Of a stretch of DNA of 39,733 bases, positions 18,251-32,476 are shown piece after piece. Where the stretch lies: positions 1 through 39,733 of the IMG/VR virus record IMGVR_UViG_3300026130_000434. One strand, written 5' to 3'. A program made the position numbers and the translations under genes. Each line of letters starts with the position of its first letter. Positions within the stretch are counted from its first letter, which is position 1. Origin of the DNA: a virus. The notes beneath the pieces were generated by a model, which worked only from the letters and a program-made list of their open reading frames with translations, searched no databases and was not told where the DNA came from.

Positions 18251-18514
18251 ATGATTAAACATGAACTAGACTTTAGTAACGGCGCCGTCGTAGTAGGACA
18301 CTACAAATATCCAAAATGTCCATCCTGCGACAGCGCCAAAGAACTCTTAAAAGAGAACGATATACAGTACACATTTGTACAAGCAGACAAAAAACTATTT
18401 GGCAAGGTTATGGGTGTAACCAAGCAAATTACTGTACCACAAATATTTATCAATGGTGAATTTATTGGTGGTTACGAAGAACTAGAAACTAAACTAAAAG
18501 GAGAAAAACAATGA
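18251..18514 (+). CDS. Glutaredoxin
   Basis: An 87-residue glutaredoxin. It has the active site CPSC at residues 23-26, the cis-proline segment TVPQIFI and the glutathione-binding GGYEEL near the end. It reduces disulfides with glutathione and could serve ribonucleotide reductase or the peroxiredoxin encoded directly after it, with which it overlaps by four bases (ATGA). In some bacteria the same two domains are fused in a hybrid Prx5-glutaredoxin. The promoter and hairpin before it suggest late expression. Confidence 0.92.
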
Positions 18515-19062
18515 TAGGCAAACAAGTACCACAAGTAACATTTAAATACCGTGTTCGTACAGACGGACATGATATCTGCTACGTAAACCCAGACAATGGT
18601 GGTGAAAACCCTTTTGAATGGAAAGACGTAACAACTGATGATATCTTTGCAGGCAAGAAAGTAATCGTATTCTCACTACCAGGAGCATACACTCCAACTT
18701 GCTCTGCTTCGCACTTACCTAGATACGAAGAATTGTATTCTGAATTTAAAGAACTGGGAGTAGATGAAATCTACGTTCTATCAGTAAACGATACATTCGT
18801 TATGCGTAAGTGGATGATTGATCAAAAAGCAACCAACGTAAAATTTATTCCCGATGGTTCTGGAATATTCACTGAAGGAATGGGAATGCTGGTAGATAAA
18901 GATAATCTAGGTTTTGGTAAACGATCTTGGAGATATTCTATGTTAGTTGATGATAGAGTAGTTGAGAAGATGTTCATTGAAGATGGTAAAATGGATAATT
19001 GTCCGACAGATCCATATGAGGTATCTGACGCAGACACAATGTTATCATATTTAAAATCTTAA
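18511..19062 (+). CDS. Peroxiredoxin, Prx5 type, with a replaced 3' end
   Basis: A 183-residue peroxiredoxin that reduces peroxides. The peroxidatic Cys64 lies in PGAYTPTCS, and [10 protein letters not shown] (about 135-144) and the C-terminal DPYEVSDAD are family landmarks. It probably takes electrons from the glutaredoxin before it. The part from about residue 135 on has a diverged second version at 20055-20198, beyond an inverted homing endonuclease gene. The present end therefore seems to have been brought in with the element. The gene itself is intact and in frame. Confidence 0.93.
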
Positions 19063-22999: not shown

Positions 23000-23761
23000 A
23001 TGCAAAACTACGAAACTATTTTGGAAGTGGAACATTTCACGGATGATTTGTTTTGGTTTAAAACGACTAAGAGTGATGCATGGAATAAGCGTAATTTTAT
23101 CGCAGGCGAATTCACAATGATCGGTATGCCAGATAACGATATACAAAGAGCATACAGCATTGCGACTAGCCCAAAAAATGACTTTCTTGAATTTTTCAGT
23201 ATCAAAGTTCAAGATGGTCCACTAACTAAAGAACTACAAAACGTAAAGGTAGGGGATGAAATAGAAGTAGGAAGTAGACCTGTTGGTACACTGACTACCA
23301 AACTACTAAGCCCCACCACAGCAGACAAAAGCCGTTTATGGTGTATCTCTACGGGTACAGGTCTCGCGCCGTTTTTGAGCATAGCAAGGGATTCAGATGC
23401 TTATGAACAATTTGACGAGGTTATTGTTACTCATACCTGCCGTACTAATGCTGAACTCGTGTTCGGTGAAGATATCAAACGATACGGCGCTAGAATGTAT
23501 CAAACAGTCACTAGAGAAGACCCTAAAGAAGGTCGATATAGAGGACGTATCACAGACAGAATACATAGCGGTGAGTTGTTCCGTGACCTGGAAATAGACC
23601 AAGACTTTTTTGATCCTGAACGTGACCGTATTATGATATGTGGTGGTCCAGATTTTAACATAGAACTACGCAACATGTTTGAATCACAAGGATGGATTCA
23701 CGGTACCAAAAAGGAACCCGGACAGTTCGTACAAGAAAAAGCGTTTGTTGAGGTACTGTAA
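23000..23761 (+). CDS. fpr: Ferredoxin/flavodoxin-NADP reductase
   Basis: A complete 253-residue reductase of the bacterial Fpr type. The FAD-binding motif RAYS is at 50-53, the NADP-binding GTGLAPF at 119-125 and a CGGP motif near 217; the C-terminus ends in FVEVL as in family members. It moves electrons between NADPH and ferredoxin or flavodoxin. In this phage it could feed ribonucleotide reduction, iron-sulfur repair or the other redox proteins in the window. It has an AAAAGGA site and probably shares a transcript with the MscS-like gene. Confidence 0.94.
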   Translation: MQNYETILEVEHFTDDLFWFKTTKSDAWNKRNFIAGEFTMIGMPDNDIQRAYSIATSPKNDFLEFFSIKVQDGPLTKELQNVKVGDEIEVGSRPVGTLTTKLLSPTTADKSRLWCISTGTGLAPFLSIARDSDAYEQFDEVIVTHTCRTNAELVFGEDIKRYGARMYQTVTREDPKEGRYRGRITDRIHSGELFRDLEIDQDFFDPERDRIMICGGPDFNIELRNMFESQGWIHGTKKEPGQFVQEKAFVEVL

Positions 23762-24017: not shown

Positions 24018-24045
24018 TTGACTTTATCCTCAAAGGAGTTATAAT
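24018..24045 (+). promoter_or_regulatory. Sigma70-like promoter
   Basis: TTGACT (24018-24023), 16 bp, TATAAT (24040-24045), then TTGAGAGGATAC before ATG 24078. Confidence 0.75.
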
Positions 24046-24077: not shown

Positions 24078-24440
24078 ATGACTACACTGACTAATGAAAT
24101 TGCTACTCTTGTTGAAGAAATCAAAAAAGACTACGCTGGATTCAACGCAAATCTAGCAAAAGATGCGTCAGATGATGAAACTCGTGATCGAATCCGCGCT
24201 AATATGACTGAACGTTTCAACAATGGTATTGAAATATCAGAAGGTAAAAAATACATCAAGATTATCACCAATCGTTCTGTTTGGGGATTCATTGTCAAAG
24301 GTGACGATGATAAAAAGTTCCGTAAAGGAGATATTCTAAAAGCGGCAAGTTGGGCGACTCCCGCTCGTAATGCGGCTCGCGGAAACGTTATTGACGGTGG
24401 ATACACCGTTCGATGGACTGGCCCTCTTTACCTTAAATAA
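24078..24440 (+). CDS. Hypothetical protein, early/middle promoter
   Basis: A 120-residue basic protein with a helical first half (residues 1-45) and a beta-rich second half (KYIKIITNRSVWGFIVKG, then RKGDILKAASW and a C-terminal VRWTGPLYL). The pattern suggests a compact alpha-beta protein with perhaps an SH3-like end. Strong promoter and GAGAGG site. A structured RNA region follows. No family recognised. Confidence 0.6.
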   Translation: MTTLTNEIATLVEEIKKDYAGFNANLAKDASDDETRDRIRANMTERFNNGIEISEGKKYIKIITNRSVWGFIVKGDDDKKFRKGDILKAASWATPARNAARGNVIDGGYTVRWTGPLYLK

Positions 24441-24449
24441 GGGTCATAT

Positions 24450-24624
24450 GCAAATATTGGTAGGAAATTAAGTACGCATATCCATTTTCGTACTTAGTAT
24501 ATAAATATTAGTGTAAGGAATTGAGATTTTTTCTTAGTTCCTTATACTACATGATAAAACTTTAAGTTTTATTATTTAGTCCTCTTCGCCAATATTTGCC
24601 CGGGACTCGTTCCCGGGTTTTTTT
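24450..24624 (+). ncRNA. Candidate structured RNA: four-way junction plus terminator
   Basis: No gene fits 24441-24643, but nearly every base is in a stem. An outer stem pairs GCAAATATTGG (24450-24460) with CCAATATTTGC (24589-24599). Inside are three hairpins: 24468-24476 with 24489-24497; a 16 bp stem 24510-24525 with 24533-24548 (three G-U pairs); and 24552-24560 with 24566-24574. A strong terminator abuts the outer stem. A perfect late box TATAAATA (24500-24507) lies between hairpins 1 and 2, so late transcripts would start near 24513 and contain only hairpins 2 and 3 and the terminator. It could be a regulatory RNA or a leader. It is not a tRNA. Confidence 0.7.
24599..24624 (+). terminator. 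Rho-independent terminator
   Basis: CCCGGGA and TCCCGGG (7 bp, loop CTCGT) followed by seven T. The strongest terminator in the window; it ends the structured RNA. Confidence 0.9.
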
Positions 24625-24643: not shown

Positions 24644-24997
24644 ATGGCAAATCTATTCAAAGACATTAACACGTTTCAAACAGCGTGTGACCAAGAACCA
24701 AACGAATCAAACTACAAAATGTACATTGACCTCATTCGTGAAGAGGTACAAGAACTAGAAGAAGCACTAGAAGCAAACGACCGCATAGAACAGTTAGATG
24801 CCCTTATTGATATTATGGTAGTAACATTGGGCGCTGTACGCACTGGCAATTTTGACGGAGAAGGAGCATGGGACGAAGTAATGAAAACCAATTTTGCGAA
24901 AATAGATCCGGAAACAGGAAAGGTACGGAAACGAGAAGACGGAAAAGTTCTGAAACCAGAGGGATGGGTAGCACCGAATCTGAAACCGTTCGTGTAG
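24644..24997 (+). CDS. MazG-like nucleotide pyrophosphohydrolase
   Basis: A 117-residue protein of the all-alpha NTP pyrophosphohydrolase group. It shows the LIREEVQELEEAL segment with the metal-binding Glu residues (about 29-42) and DALIDIMVVTLGA with the partner Asp. Phage MazG-like proteins hydrolyse nucleoside triphosphates or alarmones. It lies right after the structured RNA and terminator, with a GGGATAAT stretch as a weak binding site. The C-terminal 30 residues (DPETGKVRKREDGKVLKPEGW) are usual for phage members. Confidence 0.85.
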   Translation: MANLFKDINTFQTACDQEPNESNYKMYIDLIREEVQELEEALEANDRIEQLDALIDIMVVTLGAVRTGNFDGEGAWDEVMKTNFAKIDPETGKVRKREDGKVLKPEGWVAPNLKPFV

Positions 24998-25663: not shown

Positions 25664-26350
25664 ATGGAATCATTCATTGTAGATAACTATTCAACGTATT
25701 CTACTACTATCCACACTACTGTAGTACAAACGGGTGAAAGTATCATAAGTGATGAATTTAATATCGATGTTGATTTTGCTTGGGTTAATCCTGACAGGAA
25801 AGAAGCAAACGTTTCATTTCTAAAAATGAAAATGCTTATAGAAGAAGTTCTAGACCAAAGTATTATCACACACCGTAACGCAAAAATAGATACATCTATG
25901 CTTGCTAACAATACTATACTGTTGCCATACGTACCATCGACTGATATATTAGCAATGGTACTTCATGCCAAACTCTGCGCAGTGGTAGGCGATGATATTT
26001 TTATTGCGAAAGTTAAAGTAACTAATGCGCTCCCTGATTTTTCTATGGCGTTCACATATTCGGATAGAGATTATTCGTTACTGCCCACAATCGAAGAATT
26101 TGCAGAAAATGACTTCACACACTATAAAACACCTTGGTGGTTCCGAGATACATGCGAAACGTGCGACTACTTTTCAGATAATGAAGACGATGTTATTGAA
26201 GAGCCTCAATATTATGATGTGTATGAAGAAATCAATACAATGGTCAACGAAATTGAAGCAGAAGTACGCGGTGAACTAGGCGAAGAACCAGAAGAAGATG
26301 GTGAAGTAATTGATTTCAAGGCGTGGAAACCAACAGTTGTCGATGAATGA
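25664..26350 (+). CDS. Hypothetical acidic phage protein
   Basis: A 228-residue protein with a beta-rich N-terminal part (residues 1-140) and an acidic helical C-terminal part. CETCDYFSDNEDD near 168 has a CxxC pair. No domain recognised and no signal peptide. It has an AGAGGAC binding site and overlaps the next gene by eight bases. Function unknown. Confidence 0.55.
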   Translation: MESFIVDNYSTYSTTIHTTVVQTGESIISDEFNIDVDFAWVNPDRKEANVSFLKMKMLIEEVLDQSIITHRNAKIDTSMLANNTILLPYVPSTDILAMVLHAKLCAVVGDDIFIAKVKVTNALPDFSMAFTYSDRDYSLLPTIEEFAENDFTHYKTPWWFRDTCETCDYFSDNEDDVIEEPQYYDVYEEINTMVNEIEAEVRGELGEEPEEDGEVIDFKAWKPTVVDE

Positions 26351-26867
26351 TTTGACCTTTGATAGGTACGGTCGTGTTGTCTACAACAAACAAGACTTGT
26401 ATGATATGTTGATGGAAGGCATTGACATATCACCTATCACCAATGTTGAATGGAATGAGGATATACACAAATACAACACTGCGATTGATGCTAACCATTT
26501 AGATTCAAGTAAAATTGCTCCATTGGCAAAGTATGATTATGACGTTGAGGAGTTTGATGAGCATCAACAATCACAGTGGTTTATCCCTAATAAGTACAAA
26601 GAACTAGACATAATAAGATATGTGTGGGAACGTACACCAAAAGATAGGGAAGAGCGTGTAGAACAAGAGTTGTTCCTATATGCTAAATATGATTTACTGA
26701 ATGTATTAAGAGCGTGTGTGTATCTTGTGGACACTATGCGAGAACATAATATAGTATGGGGTGTCGGTCGTGGCAGTTCTGTGTCCAGTTATGTTTTGTA
26801 TGTATTAGGAATTCACAAGATAGATAGCGTAAAGTATGGATTGGATATTAGTGAGTTTTTAAAATAG
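26343..26867 (+). CDS. Fragment-like protein with the DNA polymerase III alpha GRGS motif
   Basis: A 174-residue protein. The last 40 residues read WGVGRGSSVSSYVLYVLGI then IDSVKYGLDISEFL, a very good match to the conserved GRGS segment of bacterial DNA polymerase III alpha (GxGRGSAAGSLVAYLLGI-type, then IDPLKYGLLFERFL-type). In the polymerase this segment precedes the palm Asp residues, but here the protein stops at once, so no polymerase activity is possible. The N-terminal 130 residues show no PHP domain. It is in frame, has an overlapping start, and sits in an operon, so it is probably a functional derivative and not a random remnant. Confidence 0.7.
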   Translation: MNDLTFDRYGRVVYNKQDLYDMLMEGIDISPITNVEWNEDIHKYNTAIDANHLDSSKIAPLAKYDYDVEEFDEHQQSQWFIPNKYKELDIIRYVWERTPKDREERVEQELFLYAKYDLLNVLRACVYLVDTMREHNIVWGVGRGSSVSSYVLYVLGIHKIDSVKYGLDISEFLK

Positions 26868-27073: not shown

Positions 27074-27481
27074 ATGGCAAAACATAGAAGTATGCGAGGC
27101 GAAATTATCGACCTAAACAAACTTGCCGCTAAAGCAGAAGATAGTATTACAGTGGGCAACACTAACACAAATGCTCGCGGAGATGAACTAGGACGCAGAG
27201 GTAAAGTGGTCAAGAAAGCAGACCAAGTTGCTCGTGACCATTACAACAATAATAATCCAAAGTCAGTCAAAATGGCAGGTCTTAAGGTAGATGATTGGGA
27301 AGAACCAGATGCTAACCCAGAACCTGCTCCTAAAAAGGCTCCAGAACCTGCTACTAAAAAGGCTCCGGATCCTGCTCCTAAAAAAGCACAGTCTAAAATT
27401 GTAAAAGAACAACCCCAAAAAAACGATGACCAATGGGTAGAAGATGCTGAAGGAAACTTTGTAAGAAAAGAGGACAAGTAA
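27074..27481 (+). CDS. Lys/Pro/Ala-rich phage protein before the co-chaperonin
   Basis: A 135-residue protein beginning at ATG 27074 after GAGGAAT. The N-terminal 70 residues (MAKHRSMRGEIIDL, then NARGDELGRRGKVV) look like a conserved phage domain. Next come three tandem PEPA(P/T)KKAP repeats (about 84-108), a flexible Lys-Pro-Ala linker, and a charged end. Overlaps the co-chaperonin start by one base. It may be a nucleic-acid-binding or structural protein. Confidence 0.6.
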   Translation: MAKHRSMRGEIIDLNKLAAKAEDSITVGNTNTNARGDELGRRGKVVKKADQVARDHYNNNNPKSVKMAGLKVDDWEEPDANPEPAPKKAPEPATKKAPDPAPKKAQSKIVKEQPQKNDDQWVEDAEGNFVRKEDK

Positions 27482-27819
27482 TGAGTTTAAAAGTACTAGG
27501 CGATAAAGTAATCGTACATAAAATGGAAGCAGGCGAACAACGCACAAAGAGCGGCATATTCATCAAAGACGATAGCACAGTTAATGCAGGTGAACGCGGT
27601 ATTAAATCTCGTTGGGCACAGGTGTATGCCATAGGTCCCGAACAAACCGAAGTCAAAGTTGGCGAATGGGTTCTTATGGAACATGGTCGTTGGACTGAAG
27701 GACAGTTGCTCGATTTAGGTGATGGTAGCGAACCATTTAAAATTTGGCTTGCTGATAATAACGGATTGATGGCAGTTTCAGAAGAAAAACCAGAAGAAAT
27801 TCAAATGCGAGGTCTATAA
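27481..27819 (+). CDS. GroES/gp31-like co-chaperonin
   Basis: A 112-residue co-chaperonin-like protein. The pattern VLGDKVIVHKMEAGEQRTKSG, then the mobile-loop region SGIFIKDDSTVNAGERG, then RWAQVYAIGPE and VKVGEWVLMEHGRWT follows GroES. T4 encodes gp31, which replaces host GroES to fold the major capsid protein with GroEL; marine T4-like phages carry GroES-like versions. It probably has the same job here. Coupled to both neighbours by overlaps. Confidence 0.8.
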   Translation: MSLKVLGDKVIVHKMEAGEQRTKSGIFIKDDSTVNAGERGIKSRWAQVYAIGPEQTEVKVGEWVLMEHGRWTEGQLLDLGDGSEPFKIWLADNNGLMAVSEEKPEEIQMRGL

Positions 27820-32441: not shown

Positions 32442-32476
32442 AATAAAAACATAACCGCAAAGAGGACTATTCAAGA

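Follow-up and report, generated by a model that had tools for sequence, protein, structure and literature searches.

What is encoded between positions 24450 and 24624 of a 39,733-nt viral DNA (positions 1 to 39,733 of IMG/VR record IMGVR_UViG_3300026130_000434, referred to here as the window)? An earlier note, made from the sequence alone, had described this stretch of 175 bases as an unrecognised structured RNA with a four-way junction and an internal late promoter, whose early read-through and late forms would fold differently. In jumbo phages the function of hundreds of genes is unknown, and the non-coding RNAs have hardly been charted.

Over the 10.4 kb that were aligned with it, the contig IMGVR_UViG_3300026123_000400 is a 100 % match to the window. 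The clamp loader of the window is 57 % identical to that of the Pseudomonas jumbo phage PA5oct and 81-86 % identical to those of IMG/VR contigs reaching 342 kb in length, and these identities make uncultured jumbo T4-like phages its genus-level relatives. A search of the genome collection by way of clamp-loader relatives gave nothing and thus pointed to no host.

Elsewhere in the window there are a peroxiredoxin-like gene (18511-19062, phrog_2281), a gene for an FAD/NAD-binding oxidoreductase-like protein that is possibly an auxiliary metabolic gene (23000-23761), and a GroES-like (Cpn10) gene (27481-27819); PA5oct, too, has a chaperonin gene directly 5' of the clamp loader. A short ORF of 185 aa (26310-26867) corresponds to positions 16-94 of the 260 in PF07733, the NTPase domain of DNA polymerase III alpha, and this ORF and the next small one are each conserved, as separate ORFs, in the relatives L162 and L165. 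The minus-strand ORF at 37713-38702 matches homing endonuclease families (phrog_314).

Fold and surroundings of the stretch

The plus strand of 24450-24624 folds with -68.7 kcal/mol, compared with -29.0 +/- 3.6 for shuffled sequences (z -11.1, none of 200 equal), and in a GC-corrected scan it ranks first in the window with a large lead. The minus strand is a much weaker folder (-47.5, z -6.1). No coding-strand ORF of at least 60 aa crosses the stretch, the preceding one ending at 24440 and the next beginning at 24644. The description of a gene-free and nearly fully folded region was therefore borne out, and the 11-bp perfect closing stem, the three hairpins and the adjoining terminator are all present in the predicted fold (Table 1). 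Only the length given for one of the hairpins, 16 bp, differs from our count (hairpin A in Table 1).

Table 1. Features in and around the 175-base stretch, with positions in the window
Feature	Positions	Strand	Details
Sigma-70-like promoter, TTGACT-16-TATAAT	24018-24045	+	Before the upstream gene; consensus match only
Upstream gene, 120 aa	24078-24440	+	phrog_5014, of unknown function; DUF7717 match does not reach the Pfam cut-off
Closing stem	24450-24465 with 24580-24599	+	Perfect 11-bp stem (GCAAATATTGG/CCAATATTTGC), a G-U and four further pairs; CUUC bulged
Closing stem, 5' arm	24450-24465	+	Partners 24580-24583 and 24588-24599; would mask the motif in read-through RNA; window-specific
Hairpin 1, 5' of the promoter	24467-24498	+	Predicted fold; apparently window-specific
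T4-type late promoter, TATAAATA	24500-24507	+	Consensus match; between hairpins 1 and 2
Hairpin A (second hairpin of the earlier note), 5' hairpin of the late RNA	24509-24549	+	18 pairs including G-U; conserved pairs from 24511 in the model
Predicted late small RNA, 112 nt	24513-24624	+	Start taken from the promoter rule, +/-1-2 nt
Hairpin B (third hairpin of the earlier note)	24551-24575	+	Predicted fold and covariation
Invariant motif, UAGUCCUCUUCGCmAA	24577-24592	+	Same in all 10 sequences
Intrinsic terminator	24598-24624	+	Stem 24598-24618, then T run
Downstream gene, MazG-like nucleotide pyrophosphohydrolase	24644-24997	+	Unlinked to the RNA in most relatives

ARAGORN detected no tRNA or tmRNA in the region, and in Rfam 15 no family reached its gathering score for the region or the RNA, in agreement with the earlier impression that the fold was not a catalogued one. 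At relaxed thresholds, only chance-level matches to sRNAs and terminators were obtained; the best by bits was RsaOG (RF01775), which likewise consists of hairpins and a terminator but, with 28 bits, fell short of its gathering score of 50.

The genes that flank the RNA vary among the relatives. A protein of about 230 aa from an unknown family, with a HETIHW (HExxH-like) motif, is common in marine phages and sometimes adjoins the RNA (L343-L394). Eighteen records with homologues of the RNA-flanking genes, most of them short fragments, lack the RNA, and no comparable structure was found in the interval after relatives of the upstream gene. A cis element of a neighbouring gene (leader, attenuator or 3' end stabiliser) would fit a position between two same-strand genes with a terminator at the end, but the variation in the downstream genes, an upstream gene that is not the same in all relatives, and a promoter-like element of the RNA's own at fixed spacing (see below) make this explanation highly improbable.

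Homologues and covariation

DNA searches for close and for remote matches in phage records returned nothing relevant, whether the query was the window or either of two homologues. Because sequence searches failed, gene order was used to find homologues. Four clamp-loader relatives (L162, L169, L171 and L172) have, like the window, a structured stretch between genes in which a terminator comes after TAGTCCTCTTCGCmAA. When viral contigs were scanned for this motif, 40 stretches were found, of which 13, representing 10 distinct sequences, have the whole arrangement; the remainder do not and look like chance matches. The 13 contigs are from marine jumbo T4-like phages. In each of the 10 sequences TAAATA is followed, after exactly 5 nt, by hairpin A, and then come hairpin B, the invariant motif and a GC terminator, the GC hairpin and T run 3' of the motif being present in all homologues. 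All 10 known sequences have the exact motif, and most of the additional ones were retrieved by searching for the motif itself; the RNA was also retrieved by a search on neighbouring genes, which is independent of the motif. Relative to its relatives the window is 54-68 % identical over aligned columns, with the motif unchanged; the RNAs around the motif differ by 35-46 %.

A covariance model (R1) built from the nine other sequences, with the window left out, matches 24511-24624 with 46 bits (E 4.3e-8). There is one confident copy per genome, including both 342-kb contigs (the second match in G005 has an E value of 0.66). Weak model matches in L222, L223, L474 and L483 were judged to be chance. 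A relaxed scan gave no additional homologue, a 26-base pattern had no match in the genome collection, and the RNA is absent from PA5oct, Phosso and Mosig.

In an alignment that was fitted to the model structure, and thus somewhat favours it, nine stem pairs are changed on both sides (window included), a number reached by 1 of 500 shuffles, and the covariation score was equalled by none of 500. Of the cells in this alignment 94.6 % are paired, compared with 32-50 % when the partners are slid. Changes on both sides are seen in 4 of the 8 pairs of hairpin A and in all 5 counted pairs of hairpin B, and a MAFFT alignment made without the window agrees for both. Compensatory changes across aligned homologues, which the earlier note had proposed as a check, are thus found in its second and third hairpins.

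Among the cells of the conserved hairpins, 11 are G-U and none is A-C, which argues for an RNA from the plus strand and not for a DNA cruciform. Inverted repeats and one copy per genome could also be expected of an element acting as DNA (a cruciform, a replication origin or a mobile element with inverted ends), but this is scarcely credible given strand-asymmetric folding, a conserved terminator and an 11-bp terminal repeat that is found in the window only. A mobile element or origin was rejected on the weaker minus-strand fold, the unconserved closing stem and the lack of A-C cells.

No conserved coding frame was found: the motif frames SPLRQ and SPLRK share no start, and none of at least 15 aa is present in the window or L171. 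As, in addition, degenerate codon positions within the motif are invariant at the DNA level, a coding peptide was rejected. With covariation, no conserved ORF and no Rfam match, the stretch contains a structured, non-coding and uncatalogued RNA. This RNA is a genuine new family, established computationally together with its structure, covariation, promoter position and terminator, from which we infer its function.

The predicted late promoter and the upstream half

In T4, late promoters have TATAAATA at -13 to -6, with a weak first T, and the late promoter of Aeh1 is CTAAATA (PMC1524935). The internal late promoter reported for the window is supported, as TATAAATA is present and the distance from the end of TAAATA to the first G of hairpin A is exactly 5 nt in 10 of 10 homologues; the T4 rule places the start on that G in every one of them. 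The preferred A before TAAATA is found in the window copy only, the other 9 of 10 having an atypical base. In RNA-bearing genomes, GATAAATA is enriched 20-40 nt 5' of start codons in a strand-asymmetric manner. A gp55-like late sigma (phrog_12791, phrog_234) is encoded in both 342-kb relatives (G005 and G007), and is known from these full-length relatives, the window itself being a fragment. We also note that, upstream of the genes of L162-L175 and the window, no other hexamer comes near the enrichment of CTTGAC/TTGACA (31 compared with 2.7 expected), an indication that strong early promoters of the sigma-70 type accompany the late GATAAATA class.

From these features, a gp55-type late sigma would bring the host polymerase to TATAAATA, and transcription would begin near 24513, where the 5' hairpin has its base, continue through the second hairpin and the invariant motif and end at the terminator. 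The late form of about 110 bases that had been proposed corresponds to this predicted transcript of about 112 nt, in which the hairpins would protect and frame the RNA. The time of expression and the exact ends, like the trans pairing considered below, are what we infer.

In the window phage none of 500 shuffles gives a closing stem as good, whereas in relatives 27-349 of 500 do, so that the pairing there is weak at most, and on inspection no counterpart of hairpin 1 was noticed upstream of the RNA in relatives. The closing stem of the four-way junction is consequently beyond chance in the window phage, but the junction is not supported as a property of the family, and the second half, which had been seen as a truncated late form, is instead the conserved unit.

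These results bear on the switch that was originally suggested, in which the four-way junction forms in early read-through RNA and only its second half in late RNA; the motif would then be hidden in the first and exposed in the second. The closing stem is far better than chance in the window phage, the sigma-70-like promoter before the upstream gene is a possible source of early read-through, and no terminator-like site is listed between 24440 and the late promoter. Since the closing stem is not conserved and hairpin 1 seems to be confined to the window, a switch may exist here, but selection has not maintained it family-wide. As the explanation of the RNA, a switch that depends on the modelled read-through is very unlikely, and it would be at most a lineage-specific addition, the upstream segment complementary to the motif hiding the motif in read-through transcripts of the window phage alone.

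The invariant motif and comparison with known systems

We consider that the locus is probably a stand-alone gene for a small RNA made late in infection, found in a marine clade of jumbo T4-like phages and acting by trans pairing via CCUCUUCGC. This segment is pyrimidine-rich, resembles an anti-Shine-Dalgarno segment and is mostly unpaired in the late forms (predicted unpaired probability 0.61-0.95); in the modelled fold, the AGU of the motif may pair with ACU immediately 3' of hairpin A. The invariance of the motif suggests a fixed partner, and the exposed CCUCUUCGC probably pairs with a constant one, for which the ribosome-binding region of mRNAs, whether from the host or the phage, is the likeliest candidate. 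Judged from the anatomy of the RNA, trans pairing is the likeliest mode, and we hold this with moderate confidence.

Several ribosome-binding sites in the window have good complementarity to the motif, the best being that before the clamp loader. At ribosome-binding sites of most RNA-bearing genomes the motif outperforms shuffles of three types (composition-matched, purine/pyrimidine-matched and core-kept), and its advantage is smaller in two genomes that lack the RNA, a result that initially spoke for targeting. However, the motif also outperforms shuffles inside coding regions, including those of one genome lacking the RNA, and no conservation of individual target sites was found among orthologues. 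Because pairing is equally good inside genes and single sites are not conserved, targeting of ribosome-binding sites is not claimed. Repression of the clamp loader was also discarded, the complementary site being present in the window phage only, and pairing with E. coli rRNA involved only G-U-rich stretches and was not convincing.

A more ambitious proposal is that the RNA, made at the onset of late transcription, is a global translational switch of the late phase. Here CCUCUUCGC would pair with AAGAGGAC-type ribosome-binding sites of early and replication mRNAs (in the window, the clamp loader at 32460 and the genes at 25664, 27481 and 663) as an RNA counterpart of T4 RegA, and in the window lineage the complementary upstream segment would silence early read-through copies. 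We regard this as quite unlikely.

The main rival to trans pairing is a protein partner, with the same late RNA acting as a sponge or scaffold that binds a host RNA-binding protein, a ribosome factor or a phage protein via the motif. An invariant stretch of 16 columns is long for an mRNA seed, and the search for a conserved target found none; set against this, the motif is pyrimidine-rich and mostly unpaired, as is typical of a pairing seed, and no candidate protein was identified. Protein binding is considered unlikely.

Under the preferred reading, a late small RNA that pairs in trans, this is a covariation-supported sRNA family linked to late transcription through promoter geometry, and the invariant motif provides a concrete handle on post-transcriptional control in lytic giant phages. 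No late-promoter sRNA of this form was found described in the passages of openly accessible literature that were searched. Phage sRNAs are a known kind, and one review (PMC12197685) includes the trans-acting DicF. Like DicF-type phage sRNAs, the present RNA is small, structured and terminator-ended, with an exposed pyrimidine-rich segment able to pair with mRNAs, but there is no sequence or Rfam relation between them, and those in the portion of the review available are largely from prophages, whereas here there is a T4-type late promoter in jumbo phages. Marine T4-like phages carry the structured RNAs manA, wcaG and PhotoRC-II, found by comparative genomics; they are associated with particular genes or lie within potential 5' UTRs (PMC2864571), unlike the present RNA, which stands alone and has no cmscan match to them. 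The jumbo phage phiKZ also expresses non-coding RNAs (mentioned in PMC13282480), although phiKZ uses its own polymerases for transcription and the likeness is one of description. The closest parallel in transcription is with the T4 late units (gp55/gp33/gp45), with TATAAATA at the T4 distance from the predicted start and with full-length relatives that encode a gp55-like sigma. The late promoters reported for T4-like phages lie ahead of late protein gene orthologues (PMC1524935), whereas here the promoter precedes a non-coding RNA.
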